Below are positions 2,410 through 33,650 of a DNA stretch of 64,000 bases, piece after piece. The DNA is taken from positions 40,869,501-40,933,500 of the forward strand of contig NC_091670.1 in NCBI RefSeq assembly GCF_042453785.1, written 5' to 3'. The DNA comes from Malus domestica. Its lineage: Eukaryota; Streptophyta; Magnoliopsida; Rosales; Rosaceae. How positions within the stretch are numbered: the stretch's first letter is position 1; each line of letters begins with the position of its first letter. Below the pieces are notes generated by a model, which saw only the letters and a program-made list of their open reading frames with translations, did no database searches and had not been told where the DNA came from. Position numbers and translations under genes: made by a program.

Positions 2410-5400
2410 GTTGAGGTAGTGTTCCCTTAATTTCCCGAGTGAGGAAAACTTCTTGGTTGGAGACTTGGAAAATCCAAGTCACTGAGTGGGATCGGCTATA
2501 TGAATCTTAGAACGCCATTGTGTTCTGTCCTGTGTCATGTCCTCCGTTAGATCCAAGTACTCTAAGTCTTTTCTTAGGGTCTCTTCCAAAGTTTTCCTAG
2601 GTCTTCCTCTGCCCCTTCGGCCCTGAACCTCTGTCCCATAGTCGCATCTTCTAATCGGAGCGTCAGTAGGCCTTCTTTGCACATGTCCAAACCACCGTAA
2701 CCGATTTTCTCTCATCTTTCCTTCAATTTCGGCTACTCCTACTTTACCCCGGATATCCTCATTCCTAATCTTATCCTTTCTCGTGTGCCCACACATCCAA
2801 CGAAGCATCCTCATCTCCGCTACACCCATTTTGTGTACGTGTTGATGCTTCACCGCCCAACATTCTGTGCCATACAGCATCGCCGGCCTTATTGCCGTCC
2901 TATAAAATTTTCCCTTGAGCTTCAGTGGCATACGGCGGTCACACAACACGCCGGATGCACTCTTCCACTTCATCCATCCAGCTTGTATTCTATGGTTGAG
3001 ATCTCCATCTAATTCTCCGTTCTTTTGCAAGATAGATCCTAGGTAACGAAAACGGTCGCTCTTTGGTATTTCTTGATCTCCGATCCTCACCCCTAACTCG
3101 TTTTGGCCTCCATTTGCACTGAACTTGCACTCCATATATTCTGTCTTTGATCGGCTTAGGCGAAGACCTTTAGATTCCAACACTTCTCTCCAAAGGTTAA
3201 GCTTTGCATTTACCCCTTCCTGAGTTTCATCTATCAACACTATATCGTCTGCGAAAAGCATACACCAAGGAATATCACCTTGAATATGTCCTGTTAACTC
3301 ATCCATTACCAACGCAAAAAGGTAAGGACTTAAGGATGAGCCTTGATGTAATCCTACAGTTATGGGAAAGCTTTCGGTTTGTCCTTCATGAGTTCTTACG
3401 GCAGTCTTTGCTCCTTCATACATATCCTGTATAGCTTGGATATATGCTACTCGTACTCCTTTCTTCTCTAAAATCCTCCAAAGAATGTCTCTTGGGACCC
3501 TATCATACGCTTTTTCCAAATCTATAAAGACCATGTGTAAATCCTTTTTCCCATCTCTATATCTTTCCATCAATCTTCGTAAGAGATAGATTGCCTCCAT
3601 GGTTGAGCGCCCTGGCATGAACTCGAATTGGTTGTCCGAAACCCGTGTCTCTTGCCTCGATCTATGCTCAATGACTCTCTCCCAGAGCTTCATTGTATGA
3701 CTCATTAGCTTAATACCCCTATAGTTCATGCAATTTTGTACATCGCCCTTATTCTTGTAGATAGGCACCAAAGTGCTCATTCGCCACTCATTCGGCATCT
3801 TCTTCGTTTTCAAAATCCTATTGAAAAGGTTAGTGAGCCATGTTATACCTGTCTCTCCCAAAACTTTCCACACTTCGATTGGTATATCGTCTGGGCCTAC
3901 TGCTTTTCTATGCTTCATCTTCTTCAAAGCTACACCCACTTCTTCCTTCCGGATTCTACGATAAAAAGAGTAGTTTCTACACTCTTCTGAGTTACTCAAC
4001 TCCCCTAAAGAAGCACTCCTTTCATGTCCTTCATTGAAAAGATTATGAAAATAACCTTTCCATCTGTCTTTAACCGCGTTCTCTGTAGCAAGAACCTTTC
4101 CATCCTCATCCTTGATGCACCTCACTTGGTTTAGGTCCCTTGTCTTCTTGTCCCTTGCTCTAGCTAGTTTATAGATATCCAACTCTCCTTCTTTGGTATC
4201 TAGTCGCTTATACATATCGTCATAAGCCGCTAACTTAGCTTCTCTCACAGCTTTCTTCGCCTCTTGCTTCGCTTTTCTATACCTTTCACCATTTTCATCG
4301 GTCCTATCCTTGTATAAGGCTTTACAACATTCCTTCTTAGCCTTCACCTTTGCTTGTACCTCCTCATTCCACCACCAAGATTCCTTTTGGTGTGGGGCAA
4401 AGCCCTTGGACTCTCCTAATACCTCTTTTGCTACTTTTCGGATACAACTAGCCATGGAATCCCACATTTGGTTAGCTTCCCCCTCTCTATCCCACACACA
4501 CTGGGTGATTACTTTCTCTTTGAAAATGACTTGTTTTTCTTCTTTTAGATTCCACCATCTAGTCCTTGGGCACTTCCAAGTCTTGTTCTTTTTTCTCACT
4601 CTTTTGATATGTACATCCATCACCAACAAGCGATGTTGATTAGCCACGCTCTCTCCTGGTATAACTTTGCAATCCTTACAAGTTATACGATCCCCTTTCC
4701 TCATTAGAAGAAAATCTATTTGTGTTTTTGACGACCCACTCTTGTAGGTGATCACATGTTCTTCTCTCTTCTTAAAGAAGGTGTTGGCTAAGAAGAGATC
4801 ATATGCCATTGCAAAATCCAAGATAGCTTCCCCATCCTCGTTTCTCTCCCCAAAACCATGGCCACCATGAAAACCTCCATAGTTGCCTGTCTCCCTGCCC
4901 ACGTGTCCATTTAAATCTCCTCCTATAAATAACTTCTCTGTCTAAGCAATTCCTTGCACCAAGTCTCCAAGGTCTTCCCAAAATTTCTCCTTCGAACTCG
5001 TATCCAACCCTACTTGAGGTGCGTACGCACTAATCACATTGATAAGTTCTTGTCCTATTACAATCTTGATTGCCATGATTCTATCTCCAACCCTCTTGAC
5101 ATCTACAACATTTTGTGTCAAGGTCTTGTCCACGATGATGCCAACACCGTTTCTCGTTCTATTTGTGCCCGAATACCATAGTTTAAACCCTGAGTTTTCT
5201 AGATCCTTTGCCTTACGACCAACCCACTTAGTTTCTTGTAGGCACATAATATTTATCCTTCTCCTCACCATAACTTCTACTACTTCCATAGATTTTCCCG
5301 TCAAGGTTCCTATATTCCACGTTCCTAAACGCATTTTGCTCTCTTGAACTCTACCCTTCTGTCCTAGCTTCTTCACCCTTCCCCGTCTAATAGGATCAAA

Positions 5401-5745: not shown

Positions 5746-6281
5746 AGTTATATTTAATTATACTATTATATATAAAAAATGAAGAGTATAATCATACTTA
5801 CTATTTTATCTTGTCTAATATGATTTATGTTATACATACCAAAATGGCTACAAATATCGCAAAATTTCACAATAAATATTGAATGGTGGATGCACAAAAG
5901 TTTGAAAACTTTCATTTCGTAGTCTTGCAAAATGTAGGAGATCCGAAATATGTTCCGAAAATTCCGAGATAAAACCAATTCTGAAAACTCCAATAAATTC
6001 CAATAATCCAAAATTCCAAAATTCCAAAATTGGAGCTAATATTTGATTCCGAAACTTTTTTGGATTGGGAATGGAATTCATCTTTCCGATCCTATCTAAC
6101 CGAAAAATGGGGAAAACTTTAAGGACCAAAATGATATCCTGACAAGTAACTCCAGCTAACACAACAAATGATACTGAATGATTCATGCAAAGACAATTTC
6201 TTAAAAGAATTCTTTTTATTAATCACGATTATGTGTGCGCAGATAAGAGTAGTGTGCGCAGATATGAAGTGAACAACATAC
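5746..6281. other. AT-rich spacer, no gene seen
   Basis: AT-rich DNA between the LINE and the CTF18 exon fragment. It has a short run of repeated AATTCCAAAAT-type words near 6000-6030. Open frames here are short and show no family resemblance. Confidence 0.6.
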
Positions 6282-28955: not shown

Positions 28956-29024
28956 AAAAAAGGTCGTACCCAATGCACAAGGCTCTCGCTTTACGCAGTG
29001 CACAAGGCTCCCGCTTTACGCAGA
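28956..29024 (-). mobile_element. 5'-truncated Au-type SINE with 18-bp target duplication
   Basis: Direct repeats ATTGAAAAATTGCAAAAA occur at 28938-28955 and 29025-29042. The insert between them carries GGTCGTACCCAATGCACAAG and two copies of GCACAAGGCTCYCGCTTTACGCAG. This matches my memory of the 3' end of plant Au SINEs in reverse orientation (T-tail after GGTACGACC). Only the last ~70 bp are present, with an internal 27-bp duplication. Confidence 0.7.
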
Positions 29025-29100
29025 ATTGAAAAATTGCAAAAACAAATTGGAAAATTCGAAAGAATTAATAAGGCGGTGGGATGTTGTACAGGGTTGGTAC

Positions 29101-29282
29101 CTGGAGCTTGAGAAATTAAAGAGCTTGCCAGTTTGGGAAAAGATGATAACAACAGCTTCAGATTCACACAGAATCCATAGCTCTCCAGCTTTCTTCAAAT
29201 CCCCTCTTCTCCTCTTTGAGAAGGTCACCTGCCTTGCTCGCAAGTAGTCGATCTTCCTGATCTTGATCTTCTCCCTCATCAT
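29101..29282 (-). pseudogene. MIKC MADS-box first exon (SVP/JOINTLESS-like), orphan
   Basis: 182 nt from ATG 29282 to a GTACCA donor at 29100 encode MMREKIKIRKIDYLRARQVT, then FSKRRRGDLKKAGELWILCE and SEAVVIIFSQTGKLFNFSSS. This is the DNA-binding MADS domain, and 182-185 nt is the usual size of MIKC exon 1. Normally conserved positions are changed (RRRGLF to RRRGDL, ELSVLC to ELWILC). No I, K or C exons are recognised downstream. Upstream sequence to about 30.14 kb looks like a 5' UTR with an intron and ends where the hAT element is inserted. It is therefore a relic or captured first exon. Confidence 0.75.
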
Positions 29283-29291
29283 TTTCTCCAA

Positions 29292-30142: not shown

Positions 30143-30392
30143 TTTCCTGACAGGGCCGGTCCTGAGTTTTTTGGTGCCCAGTGCGAAAGCTCAAAATGTG
30201 CCCTTTTTTTAATACGAAAATACATGTTTAAAAAAAATATATTTAACGAGGATAATCACATGTATGTGTAAAAAGATTCACCACTAATATTAGCATGCAA
30301 AATGGCTTGCAATTTCCGTCATGATTGTATAAAATTTTATTCACATCAGCCAAATTACGATTAAAAACAGATGGATAATCAAATATACAAAC

Positions 30393-30707
30393 CTGCAAAT
30401 GGCTTTTGACTTCATCATTAGTAAGCCCATCAACCTTCATTAATTCTCTAATTTGGTTTGGTGTAGCAGCTGCAAGAAAGAAAAAGAAAAAAAAAAAAAC
30501 CAATCACATAACGCATTAAATACACATCCAATACATCCCAAATCCAACCAGATATTCATCCAATCATGTAAAATAACATATCCCACTAAATTAATCTCAA
30601 CTGCATACCATGTGAACCACCAAGTTGTTGAAGAGCATAAGCTGAAAGACCAAGCTCTCGTGGCGTCCTATTCCATGCTATTTCTCCTTGGAGGGGGTCA
30701 TCATTTC
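30393..30707 (-). pseudogene. HHO/NIGT1-type GARP transcription factor fragment (2 exons)
   Basis: Exon 30469-30393 (77 nt, the usual size in G2-like genes) encodes [20 protein letters not shown] then VKSHLQ, the second half of the GARP/MYB-like DNA-binding domain. It is bounded by TTGCAG and GTTTGT. Exon 30707-30609 ends YALQQLGGSH and joins it in frame across a 139-bp intron, so SH|AATP is restored as in HHO proteins. The expected upstream CWSPELHRRF motif is scrambled (NRTPRELGLSA), so it has decayed. HHO/NIGT1 factors repress nitrate and phosphate starvation genes. Here only a piece is present, inside the hAT element. Confidence 0.75.
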
Positions 30708-30965
30708 CTGCAACAAATAGGGGATTAATCATGAGTTGATGTATGGTCGCTTCAAAACCAAAGCATGTGGCAAAGGGAAAGGTGAAACCACTTGCAAAGC
30801 AGTGTTAGGTTGAGTCTTGAAAAAACACGAAAATTTGGTTGCCTCTATTTTTGGTTCTGCATTTACCACTGTTCAACAATCTACCAACTGGAACTCATCC
30901 AGTTAAAATAATCATAAACTAAAGAAAAAACCCTTTCATGTCTTGTCAAATAAAGATTTTCTTAC

Positions 30966-31319
30966 CCTGCCTTCTAGAAAAACAAGGTGGGATGGAATCA
31001 AATCATCATATGCAGCAGCGGATAAGTAATCAATTCCTATATTTAACAAAAGACGAACACGTCAGCTTCAAAAGAAAGAACAGAAATGATACCATAAACA
31101 GCAAAATAATCAGTTATATCTCACTGAGAAGAGCTCAGTATAAGATTATATTACCCTAATCATACACGCAGACTGTTAGAAACTACATGTCATAAAAAAT
31201 AACATAAGTGCGAATATATATATCTCACCAACAAGTTTAATGTCTGTGTTCTCCACAAACCACTGTGCTCCATCCCTCATAAATCCCACATAGCTGCTGT
31301 ATTCTTGAACATAATCCGC
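30966..31319 (-). pseudogene. Cyclase-family protein fragment (2 exons, CYCLASE1-like)
   Basis: Exon 31319-31229 encodes [20 protein letters not shown] then [10 protein letters not shown]. Exon 31036-30966 continues in frame with GIDYLSAAAYDDLIPSHLVF and LEGR. SSYVGF, [17 protein letters not shown] and DDLIPSHLVFL are signature blocks of plant cyclase/kynurenine-formamidase-like proteins (At4g34180 family). Splice sites TTTTAG|G, TTG|GTGAGA, ATATAG|GA and AGG|GTAAG are all intact and phases agree, so these 54 residues are still spliceable. The N-terminal metal-binding part and the last exon are absent. Confidence 0.8.
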
Positions 31320-31645
31320 CTAAAATTGAAGTAAGCTCTAGTTAATAACTTAATATAAAGTTTCTTTGATAAATACACCATAATCTCATGCCCTCTCGAC
31401 GCAACAGGAAGCCAATTTGTAAACTTATTCCCAAAATTATAGTTCTCAACCCTAATTAAGTTATAATAGCAAACATGTAACAGCAATTGATAAATACACC
31501 CCTATACTCTGTACAGCACACCCAAATTCCCAGAAACCCTAAAATGACAATACAATTAAAAACGGGAACAGAAAATTAGGGAATTAAATTCGAAAAGTCG
31601 ATTTGAGGGTTTGCAAAGTGAAGCATACCTGATTACTGAAGGTAA

Positions 31646-33176
31646 GGATTTAAATATCGATACTAGCGGCGAAATATCACCGATATTATCGTTTTTTTGA
31701 AGATCTAAAATTTTTTTAACTATCCAAATAATTTTCGTCAAAATATCGCAATATTATCGATAATATCACGATATTTTCAATATTTTCAATAAATATCACA
31801 ACATAATATTAAAAAATACTTAAATATGTTGAGAAACTCAACATATACTTCACTTGATCATAACCCAAAGGCCAATCAAGCTAGGATTTTCTCAGCTGGG
31901 GGAATGTGGATTTTATAGGAAAAATTGCTTGCTCACTGCCCTCACATGGGCGATGTGGGACTCCCCCAATGGGAGAGAAAATCAGAATTTTGGCCGAAAT
32001 TTTACACCCACTTTAAACGGCCATAACTTTGTCAAAACTCAACGAAATCAAGCAAGACAAAAACGAAAGTTGTAGCCCTCGAAGAGACGAAGAGAATGGT
32101 ACCTCACACGACGTCTAAATCGTCGTGGTTTGGCCGGAAAATGCCTCGAACGTCACTGAGATCGGCAGAAACTGGGTAAGATTCAAATGAGTATAACTTT
32201 TTTAATACTCAACGAAATTGAGTGAAACAAAAAGGAAAGTTGTACTACTCGACGAGACGAAGAGATTGATACCTTGCACGCCGGCCAACTCGCCGTGGTT
32301 TGGCCGGAAATTGCCTCGAAAGCCACTGAGGTCGCCGGAAATTGGGTAAGATTCAAATGAGTATAACTTTTTCAATACGCAACGACATTGAGTGAAACAA
32401 AAAGGAAAGTTGTAGCCCTCGAATAGACGAAGAGAATGGTACCTTACACGACGTCTGACTCGTTGTGGTTTGGCCGGAAATTGCCTCGAAAGCCACTGAG
32501 GTCGCCGGAATCTGGGTAAGATTCAAATGAGTATAACTTTTTCAATACTCAACGAAATTGAGTGAAACAAAAAGGAAAGTTGTACTACTCGACGAGACGA
32601 AGAGATTGATACCTTGCACGCCGGCCAAAATTCAATTGACACACTCCTGGCTTCCAAAATTCAATTCTTTTACTTTATATAAACTTGAAAAAACATAATC
32701 GGCATCCAAATTAAAGTTTAGTCTTATTCTTATGTGTAAGAAATTTAAAGTATCAAATTTGGCACATTATTCTTCATCATTTTATTCACTTCCCTTTTTT
32801 TTTTAATATCCTAAATAAAACCTCCAAATATTGTACTAATTAATTATATATAAATGATTATGGTGTGTTTAAACTTCTTTCATTAATTACTACATATTTT
32901 CTATACTCACAATGTTTGTCAGCTCGCTATATAATCAACTTAAATCAGTTAAATCCATCATGCAATGCATTTCCTTCCAATTTTTTGTGATAAACTAATA
33001 GATAATTGACTAAATAAACATCCTACAAAGTTTCATTAAAAATTTCCAAGTTTTTCTTACAATTTCCGTGGTTTCCATGTAATTTTTATCGATATCGATA
33101 TTTTACCGATATTTCCATCGATATTTCCGTGTTTTCGGACTACCGATATTTCCGATATTACCGATATTTTCTTCCT
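31646..33176. mobile_element. Mutator-like non-autonomous element nested in the hAT
   Basis: Near-identical 9-bp flanks TGAAGGTAA (31637-31645) and TGAAAGTAA (33177-33185) enclose 1,531 bp. The ends are ATATCG-rich inverted repeats: GGATTTAAATATCGATA on the left, and AGGAAGAAAATATCGGTA on the right read inward. A 9-bp duplication is typical of Mutator-like elements. The inside holds a ~170-bp tandem array and no transposase. Confidence 0.7.
32020..32630. repeat. 170-bp tandem repeat, about 3.6 units
   Basis: GGGTAAGATTCAAATGAGTA recurs at 32174, 32344 and 32514, exactly 170 bp apart. Each unit contains a CGAAATTGAGTGAAACAAAA block, GACGAAGAGA, and GTGGTTTGGCCGGAAA. The same unit occurs about 1.8 times in the solo LTR at 51.3-51.6 kb. 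Confidence 0.9.
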
Positions 33177-33485
33177 TGAAAGTAACGAAAGACTACGAAA
33201 TTCAACTCCACGGAGGTGATGGAGGTCATCGTCGCAGAAGTCGTGCCGACTTCAATGACTGTGATGAGGTCCGCGGCCCAGTTTCAATGAGAGAGAGATT
33301 GCAATGGCAAATGGGTAGGGTTAATTGGGGGATGGGTCGTTCAACTCTTTTGTCAAACTTGGGCTGGATAATTTTTTATTTTTTTTTATTCTAATTATGT
33401 GGGTTTTTCTTTTTTGGTGCCCCCTTCAATTTTGGGCCCCGGACACCAGTCCCGGTTGCACTGGGCCTGGGCCGGGCCTGTTTCC

Positions 33486-33650
33486 TGAGCAAAGGGTCCG
33501 AATCCTGCTTACCAAGAAACATGAACTGTTGGATCAAAATCTAAAAGTTACAATTATTATAATTTTTAAAGAGTGTTTCTGTTTGTAATTGTTGAATTTT
33601 GATCTAACGATTCGTGTTGCTTGGTCAGCAGAATTCGGATCCTCTGCTCA
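33486..33650. mobile_element. Foldback MITE next to the hAT
   Basis: Arms of about 58 bp: TGAGCAAAGGGTCCGAATCC onward, and the inverted partner ending GGATCCTCTGCTCA. Both arms carry ACCAAGMAACAYGAAYYGTT and GATCAAAAT. The hAT insertion lies at its left edge, because the hAT target TTTCCTGA overlaps the start, so the hAT probably jumped into or beside this MITE. Confidence 0.7.

Follow-up and report, generated by a model that had tools for sequence, protein, structure and literature searches.

A non-autonomous hAT element, a Pack-hAT, occupies positions 30151–33480 of the window, the whole stretch of 64,000 nucleotides of apple DNA that was analyzed (C10:40869501–40933500). Pieces of three host genes, an HHO/GARP gene, a cyclase-family gene and a HOS15-like gene, lie between its ends, and perfect 8-bp copies of TTTCCTGA enclose the element. 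The preliminary description of this DNA had proposed that a hAT element had taken up fragments of unrelated genes, and this has been borne out by sister copies that share the cargo, each with a target duplication of its own. Taken as a whole, a history of HHO capture, partial replacement of the captured piece, transposition and a late insertion, with the cargo carried passively, is highly probable.

Ends, sister copies and related elements

The two copies of TTTCCTGA are found at 30143–30150 and 33481–33488, where perfect 8-bp duplications and element ends had been described from the start. The left end, comprising terminal and subterminal sequence, covers 30151–30272 and the right end 33321–33480 (both on the plus strand), with CAGGGCCGGTCCTGAG and GGGCCTGGGCCGGGCCTG as the termini. 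The terminal inverted repeats are short, as in hAT elements (CAGGGCCGGTCC versus CAGGCCCGGCCC, alike at 10 of 12 positions), and the 8-bp target duplications of the C10, C8 and C5 copies, all perfect, are also those of hAT elements. Within the C10 copy, no match to a transposase was detected. Two other features are present nearby. An inverted repeat of 68 nt at 33486–33650 (arms 81% complementary, spacer 29 nt) shares 3 bases with the right target duplication and looks like a small MITE. A MADS-box exon at 29016–29291 on the minus strand (SRF-TF, 7.9e-18) lies ~0.85 kb outside the left end, and the cargo is sense on the same strand.

The ends are those of a family present in many copies. In a search of the 651-Mb assembly (19 contigs), the left query (30151–30392) gave at least 40 matches (40 scored of 121 candidates) and the right query (33175–33480) at least 42 (40 scored of 128 candidates), both numbers being lower bounds. 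Among the left-query matches listed, 12 extend over nearly the whole query and 26 over about its first 100–111 bases. One more, covering 123–242, is the HHO parent on C16 itself, and the match to L040 covers only 82–242, owing to an interruption in that copy. Among the right-query matches listed, 36 reach the right end and six cover the HOS15 piece only. The preliminary description had called for a search for further copies of the ends, with members carrying other cargo as support and ends found nowhere else in the genome as refutation. The ends recur many times, and both HHO-only and HOS15-only elements have been found.

Two sister copies carry the cargo of the C10 copy in the same order. L030, at C8:3.50 Mb, is 1786 bp long and is flanked by ACGTCACC; L029, at C5:38.05 Mb, is 1916 bp long and is flanked by CAACGTAT. 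The three copies agree at 98.1–98.5% of positions in the first ~1.49 kb and at 94.1–96.0% in the last 300 bases. Since the same cargo lies at three loci between different perfect 8-bp duplications, the unit has moved whole, and movement together with the cargo, as in Pack-TYPE elements, is thus indicated at all three. L029 also has about 47 extra bases in the HOS15 intron and about 80 extra bases that repeat the cyclase-side sequence 30727–30805, neither of which is present in the other two copies.

The C10 copy is longer by a nested 1.53-kb insertion at 31647–33176, which splits the third, HOS15-like piece. Both sisters lack a counterpart of it, which makes it a later insertion in the C10 copy. 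A 10-bp duplication, imperfect (8 of 10 positions by eye, 31637–31646 versus 33177–33186), borders the insertion on both sides. Inside it are units of about 170 bp arranged in tandem (three 277-nt matches that overlap, 82–90% alike), and its ends are AT-rich and built on CGATATT motifs. Repeats related to both of these ends are present in L041, the locus of the HHO parent (at ~1033–1376 and ~2335–2486), a few kb from the HHO match.

A candidate for the autonomous hAT relative that the preliminary description had wished to see is L049 on C14. Here both ends are present, the target duplication is 8 bp long (TTGCTGGG), and an open frame of 869 amino acids contains DUF4371 and Dimer_Tnp_hAT (5.4e-14). 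A protein search with the transposase gave at least 69 matches (52 scored of 910 candidates). Among the matches listed, a second copy at C13:15.80 Mb is stop-free over its full length and adjoins a right end, and the remaining ones are interrupted, shorter or distantly alike. The left ends of L030 and L029 are 89–90% alike to that of L049 over about 100 bases, a stretch that recurs widely, and their right ends are 80–82% alike over the last ~110 bp. These likenesses suggest that a transposase of the L049 group may move the three-gene element; with a right-end identity of only about 80%, L049 itself is no more than a candidate for the direct source.

The three captured gene pieces

The HHO/GARP fragment is located at 30273–30638 on the minus strand, and its parent is at C16:3.20 Mb (L041, 4746–5092). 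The parent exons match Myb_DNA-binding in Pfam (1e-7), and we take this GARP-type gene to be HHO, the name used in the preliminary description as well. The fragment consists of part of an intron, the whole of exon 4 (~30393–30469), a further intron and the last 29 bp of exon 3 (30610–30638). Its identity to L041 is 89.3% in the window, 91.7% in L030 and 93.0% in L029. The stretch 30151–30392 had been read as element end; about 120 bp of it is HHO, the captured piece starting at 30273. A supposed exon at 30610–30707 is HHO only as far as 30638. The peptide NDDPLQGEIAWNRTPRELGLSAYALQQLGGSH, considered as part of an HHO exon, gave no Pfam match at an E-value of 1 when joined to the next exon, and beyond the three elements its DNA matches the C5 cyclase locus only, over 59 bases; this reading was rejected. 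The bases concerned, 30663–30721, match sequence lying past the stop codon in the C5 cyclase gene. Between the two genes, a short stretch of 24 bp (30639–30662, minus strand) gave no source in the genome search.

The cyclase piece extends over 30663–31347 on the minus strand, with the nearest match at C5:18.63 Mb (L043, 4065–4989). It includes exon 4 (~30967–31039), an intron, exon 3 (31229–31319) and sequence from downstream of the gene, and the last exon of the gene is absent from the element. Identity to L043 is 86.6% over the main piece, with gaps. The parent exons match PF04199 at 7.9e-19, and the two element exons at 0.00097, which is below the curated cut-off. Exon 3 has a 7-bp deletion relative to the nearest parent that is absent from both L043 and L044. 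As cyclase identity is 87% against 89–93% for HHO, and as the 24 bp at the junction are sourceless, the true cyclase donor may be lost or unassembled.

The HOS15-like piece had not been recognized, the cargo being ascribed to two genes only. That reading is ruled out by a parent at C15:26.466 Mb (L045) and by a LisH exon. The parent exons encode MTSITSVELNFLVFRYLQESG and then FTHSAFALGYEAGINK (Pfam LisH, 2.1e-9), and from this protein sequence we presume the gene to be HOS15. The captured piece comprises the 5' UTR, the first exon and the start of intron 1, all on the minus strand. Its proximal part (31378–31646) holds the start of intron 1, the splice donor and the end of exon 1, and its distal part (33177–33320) most of exon 1, the ATG (33227–33229) and the 5' UTR. 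Identity to L045 is 93.8% and 86.2% for the two parts in the window and 91.7% for the main piece in L030.

The junction between the cyclase and HOS15-like pieces (31348–31377, minus strand) is also found in a fragment on C1 (L044, C1:27.377 Mb, 4379–4791), without the 7-bp deletion. This fragment lies a few kb from a frame that appears LINE-like by eye, and may represent an older remnant of the three-gene element. It is the one locus that would fit an ancestral gene neighborhood beside which hAT elements happened to insert. Such an origin of the piece order is extremely improbable, given that the nearest parents lie on three different chromosomes and that three copies have independent target duplications. 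The match in L044 moreover stops before the HOS15 exon, has no element end by motif scan and reads as a fragment. An ancestral locus with the same order and no ends, which the preliminary description had named as refuting a transposon, is thus not what has been found. The picture is that of a Pack-TYPE element, with host gene fragments between the ends and with parents on C16, C5 (the nearest, 87%) and C15. These parents keep their introns, and within its limits the motif scan detected no element ends at any of the parent and fragment loci L041–L045.

Family history and probable order of capture

In 13 of the 14 loci with HHO sequence that were compared, the left end is followed directly by the same base of the HHO parent, and the exception, L048, lacks that part of the gene. 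The 14 are the window, L029–L040 and L048 (L036–L039 judged by alignment only), set apart from three short HHO matches at C16:15.92, C15:3.07 and C2:3.23 Mb and from about 25 short left-end copies outside the loci compared. The simple reading of the shared junction is one capture, and a single ancestral HHO capture is therefore probable as judged from these alignments. Three lines can be told apart by what they retain of the parent. In the first, L031–L034, L040 and L048 stop at parent base 5029–5030, and L031 resumes at 5778–5950. In the second, L035–L039 lack about 100 bases including the whole of exon 4; L035, the sole member compared over its length, runs with a gap to parent base 5950, so that L031 and L035 both reach this base. 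In the third, the three-gene elements run to parent base 5092 and then leave HHO.

A scan for paired ends in 21 sequences (the window and L029–L048, five of which are parent or fragment loci) gave a perfect 8-bp duplication in nine. The HHO-only elements L035–L039 and L032 have perfect duplications at both sides, and for the other HHO copies no paired ends were found within the motif limits of the scan. L037 and L038, both on C1 and about 80 kb apart, have the same duplication, ACCTCAAC; they are probably one insertion copied with its surroundings, as a segmental or an assembly duplicate.

HOS15 sequence without HHO or cyclase is present in L046 and L047 (both C17) and in L050 (C4). L047 has a perfect 8-bp duplication by eye (GGGGAGAG) and a HOS15 exon that stays open, and L046 and L050 look truncated. 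The comparison of these pieces, made apart from a match at C2:15.54 Mb, suggests that a second capture of HOS15 is likely. It is possible, if somewhat doubtful, that the pieces in the three-gene and HOS15-only elements go back to one capture, with recombination or deletion turning one class into the other. The captured 5' region is shared by the two classes, orientation included, and six sites are common to L029, L030, L046 and L047 as against the C15 parent, but these sites may be changes on the parent itself. The alignment contains no shared indel, and the parent breakpoints by BLAST differ (3679–3238 in L030, 3625–3278 in L046, 3625–3260 in L047 and 3552–3247 in L050).

On the reading of a single HHO capture, an ancestor with these ends would have taken up about 1.2 kb of the HHO gene and then spread. 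The HHO sequence of one descendant would later have been replaced in part by the cyclase piece and the HOS15-like 5' end. This three-gene element would then have transposed to C10, C8 and C5, presumably by means of the transposase of related full-length hATs, and the C10 copy would have received its 1.53-kb insertion afterwards. Introns are kept in the captured pieces, so the template was DNA. The likely route appears to be repair of double-strand breaks, or replication that switched templates within the element. One genome here keeps several forms, namely ends with transposase, HHO only, HOS15 only, three genes, and three genes with a nested insert, so that break points and the succession of steps are directly readable.

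State of the cargo and known systems

All three gene pieces are sense on the minus strand, and the HHO and cyclase exons, as had been stated, lie on one strand with GT/AG splice sites. The statement that the exons are in frame holds within each exon pair and fails for the cyclase exon 3, with its 7-bp deletion, and for the HOS15 piece, with its in-frame stop. The C10 copy has a TAA at 31633–31635 in the parent's HOS15 frame, in the proximal part. In L029 this frame ends at a TAA after 18 codons, the same TAA being found in the C10 copy past the insertion, and in L030 a frameshift leads to a stop after 11 codons. Among eight elements, HHO exon 4 is variable at 13 of 77 columns and the introns at 45 of 201 (p = 0.41), with amino-acid changes in seven of the eight. 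This test concerns elements that retain the region (L035–L039 and L048 lack the exon or much of it), and a one-base insertion in L033 does not count in it.

A spliced chimeric RNA that runs from the HOS15 5' end through the cyclase to the HHO exons and acts as a new gene has been considered. The common orientation, the 5' UTR and ATG of the first piece and the retained splice sites would suit it, as would the few differences of the HHO exon from the parent (1–4 of 77, against 9–17 of 201 in introns), although constraint on the parent gene would be enough to account for these. It is nevertheless very unlikely, in view of the HOS15 stops in all three copies, the cyclase deletion, the splitting of the HOS15 exon by 1.53 kb in the C10 copy, and exon variation that is not significantly below that of introns. 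The coding potential once suggested for a chimera is contradicted by these stops and indels and by the lack of significant constraint; an open frame under constraint was not found, and the sequences give no sign of a working protein made by the element.

Silencing of the HHO, cyclase or HOS15-like parents by small RNAs from the cargo is unlikely, if less so. In the C10 copy, 21-nt windows identical to the parent number 31 of 58 in HHO exon 4, 32 of 53 and 23 of 78 in cyclase exons 4 and 3, and 30 of 158 in the HOS15 5' UTR and exon 1, but 0 of 271 in HHO exon 3. Such identity is a precondition only and is expected of any fairly recent capture, and none of the inverted repeats above 17 nt overlaps the cargo. 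A broader proposal is that the hAT lineage has repeatedly and independently captured the HOS15-like 5' end, in the same orientation, as a host transcription start, yielding one sense RNA from which small RNAs controlling the parents or the neighboring MADS-box gene would derive; this we regard as quite improbable. The cargo is probably passive and decaying.

Pack-hATs are known in maize and rice (PMC8903248), and gene capture by hAT elements has been reported in grapevine (PMC2528002) and for maize Ds, in a report that calls such capture a "rare feature" among hAT elements (PMC3260210). The view that capture is much less known for hAT elements is thus fair by the last of these sources, yet the phenomenon is published in all three. 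The maize and rice elements resemble the apple element in having hAT ends, 8-bp duplications and gene fragments and in being non-autonomous, and a fusion of smaller elements is reported among them (PMC8903248). The apple element differs from those described there in its three genes in one orientation, its stepwise cargo genealogy within one genome and its dicot tree host. Hatvine-6 of grapevine is likewise a hAT with a variable interior that matches genic introns and exons, but its members are described with similar transposase coding sequence, of which none was found in the apple element (PMC2528002). Maize Ds2-22 and Ds-l4-354 have, like the apple element, an intron-containing gene piece from another chromosome, and no three-gene element was found in the available text of that report (PMC3260210). 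For metazoan Pack-TIRs, template switching followed by transposition serves as a model of multicopy captures; that work concerns animals and, in its available text, leaves the fit of the model to plant Pack-MULEs open (PMC8277862). Maize Bs1 is likewise a mobile element with sequence from three host genes, but it is a retrotransposon, whereas the apple element, with its introns, was copied from DNA (PMC13317346). In the available open-licence literature neither a three-gene hAT capture nor a Pack-hAT of apple was found. The apple element clearly exemplifies a known phenomenon, and what is unusual is that three captures are combined in one element and that the intermediates can be read in one genome.
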